The position numbers and the translations under genes are program-made. 64,000 nt of DNA from Synoicihabitans lomoniglobus (lineage in GTDB: Bacteria > Verrucomicrobiota > Verrucomicrobiia > Opitutales > Opitutaceae): the NCBI RefSeq assembly GCF_029023725.1, contig NZ_CP119075.1, forward strand, positions 1,607,501 through 1,671,500. The letters are read 5' to 3'. The notes under the pieces were generated by a model. The model was not told where the DNA came from, ran no database searches, and was given only the letters and a program-made list of their open reading frames with translations. How positions within the stretch are numbered: the stretch's first letter is position 1; each line of letters starts with the position of its first letter. Below are positions 2,410 through 16,154 of this stretch, piece by piece.

Positions 2410-3420
2410 TCAGTCGGAGGGCGGTGAAAGTTTGAATACGCGCAGCAGATAGTAGAGCGCGGGGAAGATCAATCCACTGCCCACCACCAGCGCGATCAAG
2501 AGTTGCGTGAGAGTGGCGGGTGGCGCGGCGACATCATGGAAGCGAACCGGCCCCGTCACGGTGGTGACGGCGCGCGGCACATAGAGCAAATACCAGCCGC
2601 CGAGGATGAGTGCGACCTGACCGGCCGCCATGGTTCGCACGAGCAGCGTGCGGCGTCGATTGACGAAGTTCCACAGCAGGACGAGCAACCCGGTGGCCGC
2701 TGCGACCAGCACCCAGATCGCGGGAGTTTGGGTCACGGCGTTGAAGAGGTTTTCCCGTTCGTAAAATGAACTGAGGAACACGGCCCCGCCGGCGAGCACC
2801 ACGGCAATGTTAGCCCGAATGGCGGCGCGGGTGAACCGCCGACGCAACGCCGGATCCTCGGTTTCCCCGATCAGGAAGACCGAGGCGAGGAATACGAAAA
2901 TACAGGTGACGAACCCGGCCACCGCCATGGGATACCAGCCCCACCACGGAGCGAAGTAAGCCGACCAAACACTCCGCGCTTCCGGGTCGATGATGCCCCG
3001 ATGCAGGCTGGCCGCGATCGTGCCCAGCCACCACGACGTCCACAAACTGGAGAGCCCGAACAACCAGGTGTAAACCCGCTGCGAACGCGGAGACTGCACC
3101 GCGTCGTAGTGTCGAAACGTGAACGCGCAACCGCGCACGACAATGCCTCCGAGCAGCGCCAGCATTGGCACGTGCAGCGACACCATCAGCGTGGTGAAGA
3201 GCGGCGGAAATCCCATGAACAGAATCACGACCACCAAAATCAGCCACATGTGGTTCGCCTCCCACACCGGTCCCATGGCGGCATTGACGGCGCGTTTTTG
3301 GGCATCACGCAATTCGCCAGCGGGCAACAGCTCGAGGATGCCCGCGCCAAAATCGGATCCGCCCAGGGTGATGTAGAGCAGCAGGCATGCCCCGATGATA
3401 ACGATGAGCAGATCAACCAT
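2410..3420 (-). CDS. cydB: Cytochrome bd ubiquinol oxidase subunit II
   Basis: A polytopic membrane protein of 336 residues with eight or nine hydrophobic segments. It has the CydB hallmarks: an N-terminal GGSDFGAGIL, then GPVWEANHMWLI and SLHVPMLALLGGI. With CydA it forms the quinol-oxidising, proton-non-pumping terminal oxidase of the inner membrane. The start ATG overlaps the end of cydA by 8 bases, so the two are translated together. No cydX-like small gene follows in the 52 bases before the FMN-reductase gene. Length and lack of CydCD genes nearby fit the compact CioB type. Confidence 0.95.
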   Translation of the reverse strand: MVDLLIVIIGACLLLYITLGGSDFGAGILELLPAGELRDAQKRAVNAAMGPVWEANHMWLILVVVILFMGFPPLFTTLMVSLHVPMLALLGGIVVRGCAFTFRHYDAVQSPRSQRVYTWLFGLSSLWTSWWLGTIAASLHRGIIDPEARSVWSAYFAPWWGWYPMAVAGFVTCIFVFLASVFLIGETEDPALRRRFTRAAIRANIAVVLAGGAVFLSSFYERENLFNAVTQTPAIWVLVAAATGLLVLLWNFVNRRRTLLVRTMAAGQVALILGGWYLLYVPRAVTTVTGPVRFHDVAAPPATLTQLLIALVVGSGLIFPALYYLLRVFKLSPPSD

Positions 3421-8275: not shown

Positions 8276-8441
8276 GGGAGTGTATGAACGTTGAAATCCG
8301 ATGAGAAGAATCGGGGTGATGAGGCAATAGACGCATGACGGGGAGGGCGGTTACGCGAAGTTGTGGTCCGGGCAAAACATGTTGCGGCTCCACTCTCCAG
8401 CAGGTTGTTTCGGCTCTGCTTTGACCTATTTTTCGCGCCGC

Positions 8442-11180
8442 ATGATTGCCCACATTCGCCTCCTTCGAGGAATCGCCGCCGGAATGGCGCTCCTCGCCAC
8501 TGCCACCGGATTGTGGGCTCAAACGCCGACGCCTCTGCTCGTGCCGGTGGAGCAACCGTTCGATTTTTATAGCACCGGCGAATACAGGGAAAAGTTGCCT
8601 CGACCGGAAACCTTACTCGGCTACGAGCCGGGGGAAGCCTACGCGCAGTATGGCGCGTTTTTGGAGGTGCTGGAGACGTATGCCCACTCCGACCGCGTGC
8701 GGGTGTTTCCGACCGGTGCGACCAACGAACGCCGCCCCATGCATGTGGTCGCGATCTCGTCGGCCAAAAACCTGCGCCGATTGGACGACATCAAAGCGGC
8801 CAATCAACGCTTGGCTGACGGCCGTGCGGAGCTTTCGGATCGGGAAATCGATCGTTTGATCGCGAAGCAGCCGATCATCGTCTGGCTGGGCTACAATATT
8901 CACGGCGATGAAGCTGCGGGCACGGAAGCCGCCATCCGGGTGCTTTACGAGTTGGTCGCCAGCGAGAGCAAGACCGTGAAGGCCTGGCTCGATGACGTGG
9001 TGGTCATCATGAACCCCTGTCAGAATCCCGATGGTCGCGAACGATTTGTGGTGTGGGCCAACGCGCATGGTCTGGGTCGGCCGGAACGGTTTGCTTACGA
9101 GAAAGAGAACCCGTGGAATGTCCAAGGGCGTTACAACCACTACTATTTCGATCTGAACCGGGACATGATCCCGACCTCGCAGGTGGAAAGCCGGAACAGC
9201 GGGGCGGCATTCTTGGAATGGCTGCCGCAGGTCGCGGCCGATCACCACGGTGAAACCAAAGAGTTTTTCTTCCCGCCGGCGGCCCTGCCTATCAATCCCA
9301 ACCTCCCGCGCGAGTCGTTGGAGCGTTGGCTGGATGTGTTTGGGCGGGGTAATGCGGCCGCGTTCGATCAGCAGGGCTGGATGTATTACGTGCGCGACTA
9401 CTTTGACATTTTCTATGCCGGTTACTGGGACAGCTGGCCCGCGCTCCAAGGGGCGACGGGCATGACCTACGAGACCAGTGGTGGCGGCAAACGCGGCTTC
9501 AATTATCTGCGCGACGACGAAACGATCATGACGCTGCGGTCGGCGATCGCGAAGCACTTCACGGCGAGCCTGGCAACAATCGCGACGGCGGCCGCCCATC
9601 GCGAGGCGCGCTTGCGGGATTTCCGGGAGCACTTTGTATCGGCCGTGAAGGCAGGGCGCGAAGCCGACCTTCAGCAGGTATGGATTCCGGCGGGCACAGA
9701 CCCGCATCGCACGCGTGAACTGGTGCGGGCGCTACGCCGGAGCGGCGTCGAAGTGCAGACCACGACGGCAGTCGCCACATTGCCGACCGCAACGAACTAT
9801 TTCGGCGTCAATACGGCCGAAATCACCATGCCGGTTGGCACGTTCGTGGTCGATATGGCGCAGCCCAAAGGCCACGTCGCCCGAGCTTTGCTGGAACCCG
9901 ACACCGCTATCGATGACGCGTTTATCGAGCGGCAGCAGGAGAAGATGAAACGCAACCGCGATCGCGGTGAAAATGCACCGGACGACGACTACGAATTTTA
10001 CGACGTCACGGCGTGGACGATGCCGTTGGCCTACGACGTCGAGGCGTATCAAGTCGGCGCAGCGGTCAACTTCAGCGGCGACGTGATCGGCGAGGTGGTC
10101 GCGCCCTCGGTGGCGGCACCACCGCGAGCCACGGCCGCGTATGTCATCCGGCCAGGCACGGAAGGCGCCGTGCGACTGGCGCTTGATTTGCTGGAGGAAG
10201 GTTACCGCGTGGCGACGGCGGTGCGCTCCATGGATGTTGGCGGCGTAGCGTATCCGCGCGGTTCCCTAGTCGTGCGGATCGAGCGCAATCCGACCTCGCT
10301 GCACGAGCGCATCGGCGAGCTTGCCCGAAGGCATCGAATCGAGGTCGGCGTGGCGAACACGGCCTTTACGGAATCGGGCATCACCGGCATCGGCAGCGAA
10401 TCCACCTTCGCATTGACCGCGCCCAAGGTTTTGGTGGCGACGGGCGACGGCGTGATTCCGTCGAGCTACGGGGCGCTGCACTACCTGTTTGAAGAAACTT
10501 ACGGTCTGGAATTTGTGCCGGTCGCGGTTGATACGCTCGGTTCGATCGACCTGCGCAAGTTCAATGTGGTGGTGCTGCCGGCCGGCAGCCCGCATCACTA
10601 CGGCCGGCTGCTGGGCGACGGCGGCAAGTCCAACTTGAAAACCTGGGTCAGCCAAGGCGGCACGTTGATCTGTCTCGGCTGGGCCACGGAGTTCGCGATC
10701 GATGCCGACACGGGCTGGACCAGTATCAAGCGAGTTGGTGCGGACGATGATGATGACGCCAAAGCCGATGACGCCGACGGTGAAGACGAACCGGACGCGG
10801 AACCCTTACCCGTGCCGGGCGCGATGATGCGCACGATGGTCGATCACGATCACTTCCTGTCGTTTGGTTACGAGCAGGATGAGCTCCCGTTTCTGGTGAA
10901 TTCGGATACGTTTTTCACCGCGTCGGAGACGGGCTTCAACGTGCTGAAGTTCCCCCAGGAGAATATTCGTCTGGCTGGTTACGTATGGCCGGACAACACG
11001 GAGCGCCTCATCGGAGGCACAGCCGCAGTGGTGGACGAGCCGGTGGGCCGCGGTCACATCATCCTCTTCAGCGACGAACCCGGTTACCGCGCCTGGTGGC
11101 ACGCCACGACGCGCATGTTGATGAACGCGATTCTCTACGCGCCAGGCTTGCAGAACCAAACCGGGGGATACTCGCGATAG
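8442..11180 (+). CDS. Large secreted zinc carboxypeptidase (M14 family)
   Basis: A protein of about 912 residues. The start ATG at 8442 gives a clean signal peptide (IRLLRGIAAGMALLATATGLWAQ split by Arg/Gly, cleavage near AQ). The Zn-binding HxxE is in YNIHGDEAAG (His154, Glu157), the third ligand in ADHHGETKEF (His268/269), and the catalytic Glu candidate in TYETSGGG. The C-terminal half, a glutamine-amidotransferase-like alpha/beta region (KVLVATGDGV…), is typical of the roughly 900-residue M14 proteins of Bacteroidota and Verrucomicrobiota. An Asp/Glu-rich insertion lies at about 766-790. It probably degrades exogenous peptides in the periplasm or outside. It is the last core gene before the mobile island. 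Confidence 0.88.
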   Translation: MIAHIRLLRGIAAGMALLATATGLWAQTPTPLLVPVEQPFDFYSTGEYREKLPRPETLLGYEPGEAYAQYGAFLEVLETYAHSDRVRVFPTGATNERRPMHVVAISSAKNLRRLDDIKAANQRLADGRAELSDREIDRLIAKQPIIVWLGYNIHGDEAAGTEAAIRVLYELVASESKTVKAWLDDVVVIMNPCQNPDGRERFVVWANAHGLGRPERFAYEKENPWNVQGRYNHYYFDLNRDMIPTSQVESRNSGAAFLEWLPQVAADHHGETKEFFFPPAALPINPNLPRESLERWLDVFGRGNAAAFDQQGWMYYVRDYFDIFYAGYWDSWPALQGATGMTYETSGGGKRGFNYLRDDETIMTLRSAIAKHFTASLATIATAAAHREARLRDFREHFVSAVKAGREADLQQVWIPAGTDPHRTRELVRALRRSGVEVQTTTAVATLPTATNYFGVNTAEITMPVGTFVVDMAQPKGHVARALLEPDTAIDDAFIERQQEKMKRNRDRGENAPDDDYEFYDVTAWTMPLAYDVEAYQVGAAVNFSGDVIGEVVAPSVAAPPRATAAYVIRPGTEGAVRLALDLLEEGYRVATAVRSMDVGGVAYPRGSLVVRIERNPTSLHERIGELARRHRIEVGVANTAFTESGITGIGSESTFALTAPKVLVATGDGVIPSSYGALHYLFEETYGLEFVPVAVDTLGSIDLRKFNVVVLPAGSPHHYGRLLGDGGKSNLKTWVSQGGTLICLGWATEFAIDADTGWTSIKRVGADDDDDAKADDADGEDEPDAEPLPVPGAMMRTMVDHDHFLSFGYEQDELPFLVNSDTFFTASETGFNVLKFPQENIRLAGYVWPDNTERLIGGTAAVVDEPVGRGHIILFSDEPGYRAWWHATTRMLMNAILYAPGLQNQTGGYSR

Positions 11181-11189
11181 GTCATTTAG

Positions 11190-11381
11190 AATGAAAAGCT
11201 ATGGAATTCCCGCCCGCAGCCAATCAGTCAAGATTCAAGCAATGTCCCCTTTTTCGGACCTTCCAGTTTTGCTGGGTCAGCTGCAGGTGCCGGACCGAAC
11301 GGAATAAATCCAGCGAGCGTTACTGATTTCGTCGCTGGTCAAATCGGAGGTATATTTGATGAATGGGAACCAGGTGGATAG
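11190..11381 (+). pseudogene. C-terminal coding relic, AT-richer than host, cut by a repeat end
   Basis: An open frame without a plausible start runs to a TAG at 11379-11381. From 11256 on it reads like real protein, containing AGSAAGAGPNG, TDFVAGQIGG and IFDEWEPGG, and uses codons with more A/T at third positions than the flanking core genes. Its 5' side is formed by a solo repeat matching the Y1-transposase element end (11227-11252), so the rest of the gene seems lost. The acidic, Gly-rich tail before a small membrane-protein gene 10 bases downstream recalls toxin-immunity arrangements, but no toxin domain is visible. The family is not identified. Confidence 0.4.
11227..11252 (+). repeat. 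Solo copy of the Y1-transposase element end (2 mismatches)
   Basis: The 25 bases from GTCAAG onward match the right inverted repeat at 14148-14173 (same orientation) with two substitutions (GAG to GAT, AAA to AAG). No transposase gene accompanies this copy, so it is either a relic of another insertion or a REP-like passenger repeat mobilised in trans. Confidence 0.7.
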
Positions 11382-11391
11382 TTATAGATAG

Positions 11392-11610
11392 ATGAAGAAT
11401 TGGCATTTTTATATTATATTGTCATTAGGTTTATATTATCTAATAACAGGTGAATTCAGGTATGGCGCAGCCCGGCTAGGGCCGACAGGCTCTCGGATAT
11501 TTGGGGTTACATCTGTATTGATTTCATTGTTTGTGATCTTGCGTGATCCAAAAGGGCGTAAAGAAACGTCTAGGCCCCAAAAAGGGAGCAAAAAAAAGGG
11601 TCAATCCTGA
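11392..11610 (+). CDS. Small two-helix membrane protein, unknown function
   Basis: A 72-residue protein with two hydrophobic segments (WHFYIILSLGLYYLI at about 3-19, and FGVTSVLISLFVIL at about 38-51) and a very basic tail (KGRKETSRPQKGSKKKGQ). The coding sequence is AT-rich (for example the TTTTATATTATATTG stretch), unlike the genes around it, which suggests recent acquisition. It starts 10 bases after the stop of a truncated upstream frame, so the pair may once have been co-transcribed. Small two-helix proteins in such positions are often immunity or antitoxin-like factors; that is inference only. I do not recognise the family. Confidence 0.55.
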   Translation: MKNWHFYIILSLGLYYLITGEFRYGAARLGPTGSRIFGVTSVLISLFVILRDPKGRKETSRPQKGSKKKGQS

Positions 11611-11665
11611 ATGGCACTTAGTTAAGGGGGTTGATCGTCAATTTATGTCGCCGGGATTTGAAGCA

Positions 11666-11736
11666 AGCCGGACAGGGTGGGACAGCCGGACGGGGTCGGG
11701 ACGAGCCAACCGAAGAGCCAACCGAAGGGAGCCAAA
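11666..11736. repeat. Short tandem direct repeats left of the IS481-type element
   Basis: Two near-identical 18/19-base units beginning AGCCGGAC lie head to tail at 11666-11683 and 11684-11702. They are followed by two perfect 12-base units GAGCCAACCGAA at 11703-11714 and 11715-11726 and a degenerate third. A related CAACCGAAGGG sequence recurs, twice, on the right side of the insertion sequence (13089-13132), so similar repeats flank the IS on both sides. Confidence 0.65.
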
Positions 11737-11748
11737 GGGTATGAACCG

Positions 11749-11790
11749 GGGACATAGGTAACAGATAGTCTAGGGACATAGGTTACACTT
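11749..11790. repeat. Left inverted repeat of the IS481-type element (bipartite)
   Basis: It contains two direct copies of GGGACATAGGTWACA spaced 24 bases start to start. It pairs with 13022-13063. Bipartite ends of this kind probably give two binding sites for the transposase helix-turn-helix. Confidence 0.78.
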
Positions 11791-11801
11791 AAACTGGGCG
11801 T

Positions 11802-13007
11802 ATGCCCTGGAAAGAAGTGTCACCAATGGACCAGAAGATGCAGTTCATCAGCATGGCGGCTACGGGCCGCTTTACCGTCTCGCAGTTGTGCGAAGACTTT
11901 GATATCAGTCGCAAGACCGGTCATAAGTGGCTGCGTCGTTACGCGGCGGAAGGTTCCGCCGGTTTGGGCGATCGGTCCCGTCGTCCCCGTGGCTGTGCCC
12001 ACCAGACGACTACGGAGCTAGTCGAGCTGGTGCTCCAGGAGCGCAAAGCCAAGCCCAGTTGGGGCCCCAAGAAGCTACAGGATCTACTGCACTGTAAGCA
12101 CGGGATAATGCAGCCTCCGGCGCGCAGCACGATCGCCTCGTTGCTGAAGAGTCACGGCCTGATCAAGAAGCGGCGGCGTAAACCTGGACTCTATCATCCC
12201 CGGCCCAGCGAGTTGACCGATCCGACTCACCCCAACCACGTGTGGACGTTCGACTACAAGGGTTGGTTCCTGACGCAGGATCGCATCCGCTGTGATCCGT
12301 TGACGGTGTGTGATCGGTTCTCGCGCTACGTCGTGTGCTGCCAAGCCCGATATGATCAGCAGTTCCGAGGCACCCACCTGGCCTGTCGTAACATCATGCG
12401 CTACCACGGGGTTCCGGAGATCATCCGCGTCGACAACGGCTCACCCTTCGCTTCCAACGGCTGGGGCAGGCTCTCTCGATTGAGCGTGTGGTGGATCAGC
12501 CAAGGCATCCAAGTGGAGTTCACCCGACCGGGGCATCCGCAGGATAATGGGTCCCACGAACGCATGCACCGCGACCTGAAAGCCGAGACCCTGCAGCCCA
12601 GCGCACGCAATCAACGCGCCCAACAACGCCTCTTCGACCGGTGGCGCTTTACCTACAACCACGAGCGTCCTCACGAAGGCATCAACATGCAAAAACCGGC
12701 CGAGATTTACCACTCCAGTCAGCGGCGCCTAAACGAGAACGACAACGCCGTGCGTTACCCGGCCGACTATCTGCGTCGACGTGTTACCGAGGCCGGGTTC
12801 ATCAACTACCGCAAACGCAGCTATCATGTCGGGGAGGCGTTTGCCGGAGTCACCGTGGGAATCCACCGCACGGATGCGGGCACGAGCGAGCTGCACTTTG
12901 CGAACATCCACCTCGCCAACCTCACCCTCAATGCGGGGGACCCATTCCGGCCTGCGGCCTACATGGTTCCCCCGCATCAGGTTCCCCTCGCCAAACACAA
13001 CCCGTAA
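11802..13007 (+). CDS. IS481-family DDE transposase
   Basis: A 401-residue protein. It opens with the family N terminus MPWKE, followed by a helix-turn-helix (FTVSQLCEDFDISRKTGHKWLRRY, given here in two parts: residues about 24-37 and 38-47). The integrase core follows, with catalytic triad candidates Asp150 (WTFDYKG), Asp210 (RVDNGSPF) and Glu252 (NGSHERMH); RPGHPQDNG just before the Glu is typical of IS481. The frame is intact, so the element may be active. It lies alone between the inverted repeats at 11749-11790 and 13022-13063. Confidence 0.92.
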   Translation: MPWKEVSPMDQKMQFISMAATGRFTVSQLCEDFDISRKTGHKWLRRYAAEGSAGLGDRSRRPRGCAHQTTTELVELVLQERKAKPSWGPKKLQDLLHCKHGIMQPPARSTIASLLKSHGLIKKRRRKPGLYHPRPSELTDPTHPNHVWTFDYKGWFLTQDRIRCDPLTVCDRFSRYVVCCQARYDQQFRGTHLACRNIMRYHGVPEIIRVDNGSPFASNGWGRLSRLSVWWISQGIQVEFTRPGHPQDNGSHERMHRDLKAETLQPSARNQRAQQRLFDRWRFTYNHERPHEGINMQKPAEIYHSSQRRLNENDNAVRYPADYLRRRVTEAGFINYRKRSYHVGEAFAGVTVGIHRTDAGTSELHFANIHLANLTLNAGDPFRPAAYMVPPHQVPLAKHNP

Positions 13008-13021
13008 ACCCAACCTCCCAA

Positions 13022-13063
13022 AAGTGTAACCCATGTGCCTGGACTTTGTGTAACCCATGTCCC
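13022..13063. repeat. Right inverted repeat of the IS481-type element (bipartite)
   Basis: It contains two direct copies of TGTAACCCATGT (13025-13036 and 13049-13060), complementary to the left end. The outer boundary is set at the terminal CCC at 13063. Confidence 0.78.
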
Positions 13064-13086
13064 GATCATTCCGGGGCGGACGAAGA

Positions 13087-13132
13087 GATCAACCGAAGGG
13101 GACATTGTTGATCAACCGAAGGGGACATTGTT
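13087..13132. repeat. Perfect 23-bp tandem duplication overlapping the Y1 element left end
   Basis: The unit GATCAACCGAAGGGGACATT plus GTT occurs at 13087-13109 and again, immediately, at 13110-13132. The second copy runs on into the left inverted repeat of the transposase element. The first copy therefore looks like a partial extra element end. Confidence 0.85.
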
Positions 13133-13144
13133 TGACTCTTGACA
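13119..13144. repeat. Left 26-bp inverted repeat of the Y1 element
   Basis: It is perfectly complementary to 14148-14173 with no mismatch. Its inner six bases are TTGACA. Confidence 0.9.
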
Positions 13145-13170
13145 AAATCCTGATGGCTCTCGTCTATATT
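13139..13170 (+). promoter_or_regulatory. Candidate promoter of the Y1 transposase gene
   Basis: TTGACA at 13139-13144 (the inner edge of the left inverted repeat) and TATATT at 13165-13170 resemble -35 and -10 boxes, but the 20-base spacer is longer than the usual 17. The -10 ends four bases before the ATG at 13175, so a transcript would be nearly leaderless. No Shine-Dalgarno sequence precedes the ATG. Confidence 0.4.
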
Positions 13171-13174
13171 GGTC

Positions 13175-14176
13175 ATGCCGCGAACCGCCCGACTTGAATA
13201 CGCAGGAGCGTGTTACCATGTGATTAATCGGGGTAACTACCGTCGCGATATCTTTGAGAGCGACGGAGCTAGAGAGGCCTTCGAGCGCACGTTGCTTGAA
13301 GCTTGCGAGCGTTATCACTGGCGACTGCACGCCTATGTGATCATGCGAAACCATTTTCATTTAGCGCTGGAAACCCCGGAGGCGAATCTGAGCTCGGGCA
13401 TGAAGTGGCTGCAGGGGACGTGGGTGGCGCGCTTCAATCGTTTACGCGGGCTAGTCGGACGTCCGTTTCAGGGGAGGTTTAAATCGCTGCATGTCCAGCC
13501 CGGTCACGCTTTGGCGGAGGTGTGCCATTATATTCATCTCAATCCCGTGAGGGCAGGGGTGGTGGGGGCGGACGAAGTAGCTTCATTTCGGTGGAGCTCC
13601 CTGTATCAATTTACCTGCAATTCGGGACTTGGATCGCTTATTGGCAACACGGTGCTGACGGAAGCAGGTCAACTGCCGGATTCTCCCGCTGGTTGGCGTC
13701 GATATTTGCGATATTTGGTTTTCAGGGCAGCGGAGGATCCAGGGGACCGAGACGAGCAGTATCGTCACTTGAGCCGGGGCTGGTGCATTGGCTCGGAGGC
13801 GTTCCGATCTGAGCTTAGCGAGCGGCTCAGTGCAGGAACCGACACCTCAGGCAAGCGGCGCTTTGGTGGATTGGAGTCGAAGGCTCGGCAAATCGAACGT
13901 GAACGTGGCTGGGAGAAATGCCTGCTCGTGGGGGCAAAAGCTGCCGGACTCGACCTCACGCAGTTGCCCGCGAGAAAATCAGATCCCGCAAAAGTATTGG
14001 TAGCAGCGGCGATGAAAATGGTGACCGATGCGAGTAACGGTTGGTTGGCAAATCGATTGGCGATGGGCGAACCGGCCAGCGTAAGCCAATTTGTGAGGCG
14101 TTTTACGCTGCAACGAGGCGATGAAAGCGCTGAGTTTCAGGCAATTCTGTCAAGAGTCAAACAATGTCCCCTTTGA
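13175..14176 (+). CDS. REP-associated tyrosine transposase (IS200/Y1, HUH type)
   Basis: A 333-residue protein. The TnpA_REP opening MPRTARLEYAGACYHV and NRGNYRRDIF is clear. The HUH motif is His60-Phe61-His62 in MRNHFHLALE, and the catalytic Tyr is Tyr119 in CHYIHLNPVRAG. The C-terminal 170 residues form the extended domain of longer RAYTs, including a helix-turn-helix-like end. RAYTs cut and join single-stranded DNA at REP-like hairpins. The ATG at 13175 is preferred over a TTG at 13169. The codons for the last eight residues (SRVKQCPL) are the right inverted repeat itself, with the stop immediately after. Confidence 0.9.
   Translation: MPRTARLEYAGACYHVINRGNYRRDIFESDGAREAFERTLLEACERYHWRLHAYVIMRNHFHLALETPEANLSSGMKWLQGTWVARFNRLRGLVGRPFQGRFKSLHVQPGHALAEVCHYIHLNPVRAGVVGADEVASFRWSSLYQFTCNSGLGSLIGNTVLTEAGQLPDSPAGWRRYLRYLVFRAAEDPGDRDEQYRHLSRGWCIGSEAFRSELSERLSAGTDTSGKRRFGGLESKARQIERERGWEKCLLVGAKAAGLDLTQLPARKSDPAKVLVAAAMKMVTDASNGWLANRLAMGEPASVSQFVRRFTLQRGDESAEFQAILSRVKQCPL
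14148..14173. repeat. Right 26-bp inverted repeat of the Y1 element
   Basis: The perfect partner of 13119-13144. It lies inside the transposase reading frame and encodes its C-terminal residues; the TGA stop follows at 14174-14176. Confidence 0.9.
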
Positions 14177-14204
14177 TGGGGCGGCTGATATTCCGGTGGG
14201 TCAT

Positions 14205-14687
14205 TCAATCCGTTGCGTAGGCCCGCGCTAGGGATTGGGCTACGTTGGCGGGGACGAACTTGGAGACGTCGCCGCCGTATTTGGCGACTTGTTTCACGAG
14301 ATGTGAACTCGTGTAGGAGTAGGCTTCGGCTGGCATGACGAAGATGGTTTCGATGTCGTTTTTCAGGTGCCGGTTCATCAACGCCATGTTGAACTCGAAC
14401 TCGAAGTCGGAGAGCGCTCGCAGGCCGCGGATGATCGCGACCGCGTTTTGCTCCACGGCAAAATTCACCAGCAAGCCGCTGAACGTCGTGACTTTGACGT
14501 TGGGCAATTTGGCCAGTGACGGCTGGATCATGGCCACGCGCTCCTCGGGCGTGAAGAGCGGGGCTTTACCGGGGTTGTGAGCCACCGCGAGGGTGACTTG
14601 GTCGAACAGTTTGGCGGCCCGGGACAAGACGTCCAAATGGCCGTGGGTGATCGGATCGAAGGTGCCGGGGTAAATGCAATGGCGCAT
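14205..14687 (-). CDS. coaD: Phosphopantetheine adenylyltransferase
   Basis: A 160-residue cytosolic enzyme for the fourth step of coenzyme A synthesis: ATP plus 4'-phosphopantetheine gives dephospho-CoA. The N-terminal YPGTFDPITHGHLDV contains the T/HxGH nucleotidyl-transfer motif, and YSYTSSHLVKQ near residue 125 is the usual second signature. The start is the ATG at 14687; the much longer open frame upstream has no homology-like content and exceeds the family length (about 160). It is divergent from pgsA across a 150-base gap. Confidence 0.95.
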   Translation of the reverse strand: MRHCIYPGTFDPITHGHLDVLSRAAKLFDQVTLAVAHNPGKAPLFTPEERVAMIQPSLAKLPNVKVTTFSGLLVNFAVEQNAVAIIRGLRALSDFEFEFNMALMNRHLKNDIETIFVMPAEAYSYTSSHLVKQVAKYGGDVSKFVPANVAQSLARAYATD

Positions 14688-14849
14688 GGGGCGGGGAAAG
14701 ACGTCAGCAACGAAGGAGGACCGGAGTGAGTCAGCCGGGAGGAGCGTTACTAGACGAACGACCGGGGATCGGCGCGAGCGCAAATCGTGACGTTTCCGGG
14801 GTTGCAAGCGGGCGGGTGCGTCGAGTGAATCTCCAGAATGCGTTGGAAC

Positions 14850-15440
14850 ATGCCAAACATTCTCACCGTGTCTCGTATCCCCATGCTCTTTGTGGTGGTC
14901 GGCATGATGGAGATGACGTGGTCGGGAGCCGCGACTTGGGCCTTTTGGCTCTTCATTCTCGCGGCCCTCACGGACTGGCTCGATGGCCTGTGGGCGCGCA
15001 AATCCGGGCAAGTGTCGACCTTCGGCCGGTTCATGGATGCGGTCATCGACAAGGTGATGGTGCTCGGTCTCATGATGGCGTTGGTGAATGCGGATTTTTT
15101 CGGCCGCTTCACGCTGGTCGCCCTGTTGCTGCTGCTCTGCATTCTGACCCGCGAGTTGGCGATCTCGGGGTTACGAATGGTGGCGGCGTCTAAGAATATT
15201 GTGGTCGAAGCCGACAAGAGCGGGAAAGTGAAGACGTTCACGCAGCTCAACGCCATTGGTTGGCTGCTGGGGGCGAAAATGTTTCGCGATGATTTCGGGC
15301 ATCTATTCCCGACCGATGAGAAACTATTTCTCGATGCGATCCATTGGGTCGGACTGGGCCTTTACGTGTTGGCCGCTATCCTGACGGTGACGTCGGGGGC
15401 GTCGTATTTTAAACGACACGCGCACGTGATGGCCGACTAA
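14850..15440 (+). CDS. pgsA: CDP-diacylglycerol-glycerol-3-phosphate 3-phosphatidyltransferase
   Basis: An integral membrane protein of about 196 residues that makes phosphatidylglycerol phosphate. The CDP-alcohol phosphotransferase motif DG(x)2AR(x)8G(x)3D(x)3D is complete: it begins DGLWARKSGQ and ends GRFMDAVID. I placed the start at the ATG at 14850 (MPNILTVSRI), the usual family N terminus; an ATG at 14838 adds four residues. pgpA, the next enzyme of the pathway, follows with no gap. Confidence 0.93.
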   Translation: MPNILTVSRIPMLFVVVGMMEMTWSGAATWAFWLFILAALTDWLDGLWARKSGQVSTFGRFMDAVIDKVMVLGLMMALVNADFFGRFTLVALLLLLCILTRELAISGLRMVAASKNIVVEADKSGKVKTFTQLNAIGWLLGAKMFRDDFGHLFPTDEKLFLDAIHWVGLGLYVLAAILTVTSGASYFKRHAHVMAD

Positions 15441-15956
15441 GTGATGAAATTGAAACAACCGAATTGGCCGCGTTTTTTGCGGCGGGAGCTTGTGCTGAAT
15501 TTTGCGACCATCGGTCCCGTGGGCCGCATTCGCAAGGCGCCGGGCACGTGGGGTTCTGTCGCTGGTCTGCTTTATTTCACCCTGTTCTTCTACGACCTCG
15601 GTATTTTCGGCACGCTGCTCATCGGTGGTCTCGGCGTTTACCTGGCGATCGCCATGTGCGGCGAAGCCGAGTTTCGCCTCGGCAAGCGTGACCCGGGCGA
15701 GATCGTGTTGGATGAGTTTGTGGCGATTCCGTTTTGCTTCCTCGCGTGGCAACCGCTGATGCGCGTGGCCCCGCCCTGGGCGATCTTCCTGGCCGGCTTC
15801 GCGCTGTTTCGATTTTTTGATATTTTGAAGCCGCTGGGGATCAGCAAACTGCAGGACTTGCCCGACGGTTGGGGCGTCGTCGCCGACGACGTGGCCGCCG
15901 CGCTGGCGACGAATCTTACGCTGCATGTCATTGCCGCGATAATAATGCGGTTCTAG
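15441..15956 (+). CDS. pgpA: Phosphatidylglycerophosphatase A
   Basis: A 171-residue membrane phosphatase that converts phosphatidylglycerol phosphate to phosphatidylglycerol. The family features are IGRIRKAPGTWGS-like (here PVGRIRKAPGTWGS), VLDEFVAIPF with its conserved acidic pair, and FRFFDILKPLGI near residue 120. The start is GTG at 15441, directly after the pgsA stop; an ATG one codon in is also possible. The pgsA-pgpA order gives the last two steps of phosphatidylglycerol synthesis in one transcript. Confidence 0.93.
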   Translation: MMKLKQPNWPRFLRRELVLNFATIGPVGRIRKAPGTWGSVAGLLYFTLFFYDLGIFGTLLIGGLGVYLAIAMCGEAEFRLGKRDPGEIVLDEFVAIPFCFLAWQPLMRVAPPWAIFLAGFALFRFFDILKPLGISKLQDLPDGWGVVADDVAAALATNLTLHVIAAIIMRF

Positions 15957-16154
15957 CCGGGGTGTAACAGGCCAAACCTGTCGGGTCGTTGCTCGCGGCG
16001 ACCGCGTCGATCACGCTGCGGCATTCGCAAGCGAACGCCCTACCCAGCGTGGCGGGAACCGGTCGGGCTTATGTGCGCTCCTCCAATAGCTCACCGCGAT
16101 TAGTCAGGAGCCAACGGTCTTCCGGTGGCGTCGCTTGGTCAATGGTCTCGGCGT

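Follow-up and report, generated by a model that had tools for sequence, protein, structure and literature searches.

The closest described relatives of the locus analysed here are the TIRYTs, or TIRtrons, of Di Nocera et al. (2013, PMC3733652), in which a Y1 transposase gene is flanked by long inverted repeats. Most TIRYTs have been equated with TnpAY1 subclass 2.1 (Quentin et al. 2018, PMC6006769), which ranks second in size among the Y1 subclasses and is found in 14.9% of strains in the same source. Clusters of GTAG REPs show tandem reiteration together with flanking DNA 'of variable length' (PMC3733652), and the spread of REP- and TIR-like repeats has been called poorly understood (PMC8266576). 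The element described below lies at positions 13119-14176 of the window, that is, the whole 64,000-nt stretch of Synoicihabitans lomoniglobus DNA that was analysed (NZ_CP119075.1, positions 1,607,501 to 1,671,500). It is a TIRYT/TIRtron of subclass 2.1, and this name fits it better than the RAYT label used in a preliminary description of the sequence, as no REP hairpin is present.

Organisation of the element and its gene

A Y1 transposase gene stands between perfect 26-bp inverted ends, as the preliminary description had it. The parts of the locus are as follows.

13087-13109, forward strand: outward ladder unit, made of an 11-nt flank GATCAACCGAA (13087-13097) and the first 12 nt of the end, GGGGACATTGTT (13098-13109)
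13110-13120, forward strand: 11-nt flank of the resident left end (again GATCAACCGAA), with a putative top-strand nick at 13109/13110
13119-13144, forward strand: left terminal inverted repeat, perfect over 26 bp, with GGGGACA and a direct repeat of 7-bp period, TTGAC (13132) and TTGACA (13139)
13175-14176, forward strand: Y1/HUH tyrosine transposase (TIRYT) of 333 aa, PF01797, with HUH motif N59-H60-F61-H62 (13349-13360) and catalytic Y119 (13529-13531)
14148-14173, reverse strand: right terminal inverted repeat, perfect over 26 bp, translated as part of L325 to L333 (..SRVKQCPL)
14172-14182, reverse strand: 11-nt flank of the right end, including the stop codon at 14174-14176
11226-11250, reverse strand: solo end of the same family with 3 mismatches, without transposase, downstream of a peptidase-like open reading frame (8361-11180)

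The right outer boundary is predicted at 14182/14183, by analogy with the ladder junctions described below. An inverted-repeat search paired 30-nt arms at 13119-13148 and 14144-14173 that are 97% complementary, with the perfect core AAGGGGACATTGTTTGACTCTTGACA at 13119-13144 and, inverted, at 14148-14173. The open reading frame runs from an ATG at 13175 to a C-terminal ...ILSRVKQCPL and the stop codon TGA; the window copy has its stop codon one base past the 26-bp repeat, which spans part of residue 325 to residue 333. The product matches Pfam Y1_Tnp (PF01797, E = 1.3e-11) and carries NHFH at residues 59-62 and YIHLNP at residues 119-124, and H60, H62 and Y119 are invariant in 69 aligned proteins. 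The predicted structure (mean pLDDT 90.6) has as its best PDB match 4er8, a REP-associated tyrosine transposase (E = 3.7e-06, TM 0.73 by target length), with 2xqc and others also among the fold matches. Its C-terminal part, which has no Pfam match, was modelled as helical at 271-283, 288-294, 300-312 and 319-329. A profile sequence search of the PDB gave 0 matches at 0.01, a search of PHROGs returned only 'transposase', and a phage collection yielded one weak match.

An IS481-type element (11802-13060; open reading frame 11802-13007, 217.6 bits against a cut-off of 224) adjoins the ladder. The same IS481 end adjoins another solo end (L033, G000:C1:4836746), and an insertion preference is possible.

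Copies of the end in the host genome

The preliminary description had suggested looking for the end elsewhere in the host. In the 5.93-Mb genome (one contig), the 25-mer end was found in 17 copies at up to 3 mismatches, against 0 for the same pattern read backwards, and its copies therefore exceed chance. The genome also holds 18 Y1_Tnp matches. Seven congeners carry the coaD locus, and the relevant side is visible in three of them (L328, L330 and L333). The transposase gene is absent beside coaD in all three, and no precise empty site was found there.

Two further observations concern the same genome. Pieces of more than one end family lie side by side in one intergenic stretch (L026, G000:C1:5628064), and other Y1_Tnp genes, of about 180-230 aa, have different GC-rich palindrome-like repeats alongside (G000:C1:5878288-5879213, 3465636, 3752133 and 4356763). 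The latter are perhaps true REPtrons.

The right end and the C terminus across relatives

Homologues were drawn from 200 family genomes (126 with a match at E ≤ 1e-30), 141 class genomes (61 at E ≤ 1e-20) and a named collection (80 loci), which gave 134 distinct homologues with enough flank, counted without weighting for relatedness. Segments from tblastn were set aside when partial (144), with too short a flank (64), without a stop in the locus (53) or in the same place (1,271). Inverted pairs were sought up to 130 nt before the start and in 60 nt around the stop and accepted at a score of at least 14. On this basis 96 of the 134 homologues have inverted ends, while cross-paired ends of different elements reached that score in 35 of 1,000 cases.

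The stop codon falls wholly within the right end in 80 of these 96 homologues (48/55 in a smaller, earlier count), to be set against an estimated quarter or so for a random end, given that the search for ends reached only 60 nt from the stop. In 85/96 the right end and the coding sequence overlap. The doubling of the right repeat as protein C terminus, already pointed out for the window copy, is thus general among its relatives. The commonest stop context, TGACCCC (42/96), is the complement of GGGGTCA. GGGTCA stands at both ends in 71/96, and GGGGACA at both ends only in the window element; because of this, the usual TGA there reads TGT, and three codons (CPL) are added before the next stop.

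Outside the phylum, seven of 12 plasmid records were covered, the remainder being the Pseudomonas aeruginosa, Legionella, Collinsella and Cylindrospermopsis records and a second R. rubrum record. An inverted-end score of at least 12 was reached in 5/7, and the right end overlaps the coding sequence in 3/7, in one of them by a single base. Conserved ends lying well outside the gene, which the preliminary description had held to speak against its reading, are a minority within the phylum, whereas among these seven records the stop codon falls inside the right end in only one.

Concerted change of the two ends

Over end positions 8-24 in 75 elements, left-right identity was 0.91 within an element and 0.40 between elements, and of 575 cases in which a left end departed from the majority, 496 recurred on the right. 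The two ends of an element therefore change in concert. The tail encoded by the inverted repeat is the least conserved block of the protein, with a mean majority frequency of 0.22 against 0.29-0.85 in the other blocks. As the tail is least conserved and the ends are concerted, the tail follows the end and not the reverse, and it is the DNA end that seems to be under constraint, with the protein yielding to it. The earlier statement that the gene cannot be changed without changing the mobile end is accordingly half true.

In 43 non-redundant ends, the letters after GGGGTCA recur at a 7-bp period (identity 0.370, against 0.237-0.305 at other periods). The stem potential of the 43 ends is that of shuffled sequence (mean 3.84 against 3.67), with no excess. 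The window ends have no GTAG foot, and an Rfam search of 11000-16000 returned nothing. A hairpin or REP reading of the ends was discarded because of the stem potential and the Rfam result.

Outward ladders of truncated units

Positions 13087-13109 and 13110-13132 form a perfect 23-nt direct repeat with 11 nt of flank (n = 11) and 12 nt of end (k = 12). The preliminary description had rightly noted a tandem duplication extending the left end outward; it is one unit of a wider pattern. A ladder unit consists of a locus-specific flank, F, plus k nt of the element, with k ranging from 1 to about 900 nt, and the units stand in tandem and extend outward. Flank sequences and unit lengths differ among the ends that have ladders.

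At unselected loci the upstream flank was repeated at 38 of 314 GGGGWSA anchors (not made independent), and the common flank was 11-13 nt long in 31 of the 38; controls gave 0/85, 1/107, 2/292, 3/354 and 1/105. An enlarged set, in which flanks within 3 mismatches of an earlier flank were counted once, gave 60 independent junctions at 892 anchors (54 at 812 GGGGWSA and 6 at 80 GACGTCA). Part of its loci had been picked for GGGGTCA pairs, so this rate is inflated; the count of 38/314 predates them. The common flank measured 11 nt at 13 junctions, 12 nt at 14, 13 nt at 6, 7-10 nt at 22 and at least 14 nt at 5. Lengths of 11-13 nt thus occurred 33 times at 892 anchors and 3 times at 3,404 control anchors; the seven control motifs, taken at the same loci, gave 46 junctions in total, 35 of them in the 7-10 class. 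Counted per element, a ladder is present in 23 of 84 (18 left, 9 right, 4 both), against 1 of 783 displaced positions.

Some units approach the size of the gene. At L142 in a complete genome (G000:C1:2622719-2626259), as much as about 900 nt of the element separates one flank from the next; three of five junctions tested end their homology exactly 11 nt before GGGG (k = 108, 584 and 170), and the other two are compound, with 21 nt (two tandem flanks) and 31 nt. In genome G075 (L287), two tandem 3'-truncated copies with a period of 836 precede the full gene, are 99.4-99.7% identical and have a common flank of 12; the second 836-nt unit is probably a recombination copy of the first. At L144, a 105-bp inverted pair and its copy lie 1,080 bp apart and have a flank in common that extends over about 11 nt, with one substitution, on the left outer side and over 12 nt on the right; beyond that they diverge. 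The copy is itself tandemly doubled with a period of 278.

Between elements the flank is unconserved from -10 to -5, whereas A at -2 reaches 93%. It follows that distance, not sequence, sets the unit start. The idea that the flank is conserved element sequence was rejected between elements and is partly true within the window's own family of ends. There, pairwise identity among 17 copies (three from one array) is 0.21-0.37 at -30 to -11 and about 0.48 at -10 to -7, a step from which it follows that some copies carried their own flank, with the boundary at -10 or -11.

Two other observations relate to such repeats. Genome G033 (C3:86600-86835, L289) has at least 59 matches to GGGGTCA-N2-30-GGGGTCA, including a perfect 14-nt array, and among the matches listed, which include a chance background, it far exceeds other genomes in GGGGTCA pairs. 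Ladder-like repeats, judged by eye, are also present in three records from outside the phylum (L338, L340 and L343).

A cut, extension and rejoining model and its alternatives

The fixed start and variable end of the units suggest that the DNA is cut about 11 nt outside GGGG and extended by a variable length before it is rejoined. The ends begin with (A)GGGG(T/A)CA, after which come two half-sites at a distance of 7 bp from each other. The transposase would bind this end and, about 11 nt outside GGGG, cut the strand that reads F-GGGG; the flank would then carry a 3'-OH, and F a 5'-phosphotyrosine. From the 3'-OH a polymerase would synthesise DNA and displace the old strand, until extension halts after F plus k nt, and the new 3' end would attack the phosphotyrosine and be joined to F. 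With each cycle the intact end would gain one truncated copy on its outer side; a single cycle with k = 12 would account for the 23-bp duplication at 13087-13132, and the same event with a long k for the gene-scale units. In TnpAREP, the 3'-OH left by the HUH enzyme can prime replication or attack the 5'P-Tyr link (PMC8266576). We infer nicking, extension and rejoining from the layout of the units, and we favour, with modest confidence, the view that the element is an autonomous TIRtron whose transposase nicks about 11 nt outside its end, extends and rejoins, and so produces ladders.

Several results count against this mechanism. The control rate (35/3,404) would explain about 9 of the 22 junctions, among 60, that share only 7-10 nt, and the excess means either that the ruler is inexact or that flanks have mutated. 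A further 14 of the 60 junctions lie at 12 and not 11, the window's own family of ends steps at -10 and not -11, 61 of the 84 elements are free of ladders, and two of the five gene-scale junctions at L142 are compound. The records from outside the phylum also weigh against it, with the stop inside the right end in one of seven and ladders judged by eye. Characterised TnpAREP enzymes cut at CT or CA, and the E. coli enzyme needed a C as the attacking 3' end (PMC8266576). No base preference of the CT or CA type was seen at the ladder junctions.

The tandem units could instead have been made by replication slippage or unequal exchange, without any cut by the transposase. Short tandem duplications are common, the G runs at the junctions give small homologies, and recombination is the simplest source of the second unit in G075. 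Slippage would not, however, fix one breakpoint 11-12 nt from the motif and let the other range between 1 and about 900 nt, and the control motifs at the same loci (46/3,404, with 3 in the 11-13 class) show no such concentration, so that we hold this explanation to be unlikely. The order F, fragment, F, element would also result if each unit were a fragment of an end that had entered, as a micro-insertion, beside a resident end through an 11-bp staggered cut, the repeated flank being a target-site duplication. Such fragments would always have to start at GGGG, and the window element itself has no flanking 11-bp direct repeat (left GATCAACCGAA, right TTTGATGGGGC). Larger target duplications are, moreover, not reported for Y1 transposases of the IS200/IS605 group in the parts of PMC2817692 that bear on this point. 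Micro-insertion appears improbable.

A different doubt concerns the ends themselves, whose coincidence with the C terminus might be mere compactness, the ends only delimiting a domesticated gene. The poorly conserved protein tail and the low copy number agree with this, and TnpAREP genes have been called domesticated (PMC8266576). Nevertheless, the ends change in concert and are dispersed as solo and 105-bp paired copies, and the gene is missing beside coaD in the three congeners (of 7) with that side visible, which leaves domestication very improbable. The preliminary description had also read TTGACA at 13139-13144, 36 nt ahead of the ATG, as the -35 box of the transposase gene, by which the left end would couple mobility with expression. 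This hexamer occurs in only 17 of 96 left ends; where it is present, the best -10 hexamer at 15-19 nt spacing averages 2.53 of 6 matches, against 2.28 in shuffled spacers, and the window's own -10 matches 3 of 6. TTGACA is also the second half of the 7-bp repeat, which is kept with other letters in other lineages. With TTGACA rare in left ends and the -10 barely above shuffled, the promoter reading was rejected, and we give it very little credence.

A broader proposition can be put forward tentatively, with confidence just short of even. TIRYTs would be self-stuttering nickases that cut by distance, at about 11 nt (one helical turn) and largely regardless of flank sequence; a polymerase would write F plus k nt before the strand is rejoined, and the ladders seen in genomes would be a fossil record of single events of cutting, extension and rejoining, whose products range from 1 nt to almost the full length of the gene.

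Comparison with known systems

Several features place the window element among the TIRtrons, beginning with the Y1/HUH domain and its catalytic Tyr. The GGGGWSAS motif is a less clear case: it is assigned, at a similar distance from the gene, to some TIRs only (PMC3733652), and the window's GGGGACAT fits 7 of its 8 positions. Some TIRs form dispersed families, dimers and clusters (PMC3733652), and the window end has its 17 genomic copies. The window ends are likewise long inverted repeats, unrelated to GTAG REPs and without excess stem potential. Some of the described repeats overlap the gene ('5'ov' and '3'ov' in the legends of Figures 8 and 9 of PMC3733652), and '3'ov' means that the repeat-gene overlap itself is known in kind. 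In the sections of that paper relevant here, the rule that the stop lies in the right repeat, the 7-bp internal repeat and the truncated outward units are not described. Nor did searches of the open-licence PMC literature yield a description of such units, of where they start or of the rule on the stop codon.

The protein agrees with TnpAY1 subclass 2.1 in the motifs NH[YF]H and Y[IV]HLNP, both present here, in a long C-terminal extension and in the lack of a REP hairpin (PMC6006769). The extension of that subclass is a helix-turn-helix (PMC6006769), and the C-terminal model here is helical, without a Pfam match. The passages of the same paper on this subclass report no REP-like sequence near the genes and do not describe outward ladders. 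With RAYTs/REPtrons and REPINs the element has in common the catalytic fold (4er8), and its inverted non-coding copies of about 105 bp resemble the REPIN layout. It differs from them in having no GTAG-tagged hairpin, in a stem potential equal to that of shuffled sequence and in a score of 60.8 bits to NCBIfam REP_Tyr_transpos (NF047646), under the cut-off of 80. The IS200/IS605 group has the same Y1 HUH chemistry and fold (2xqc and others), but the transpos_IS200 model NF033573 scores 30.5 bits against a cut-off of 55, and the window has long inverted ends in place of subterminal hairpins.

A right end that carries the stop codon shows how coding sequence can accommodate the recognition site of an element, the protein tail giving way to the DNA. 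If the model is true, the ladders give the in vivo cleavage position of a transposase class that, as far as we found, has never been studied at the bench, and solo ends, paired 105-bp copies and truncated gene arrays would all arise by one reaction. The ladders offer a testable cleavage position and a prime-extend-rejoin route for the spread of REP- and TIR-like repeats alike.
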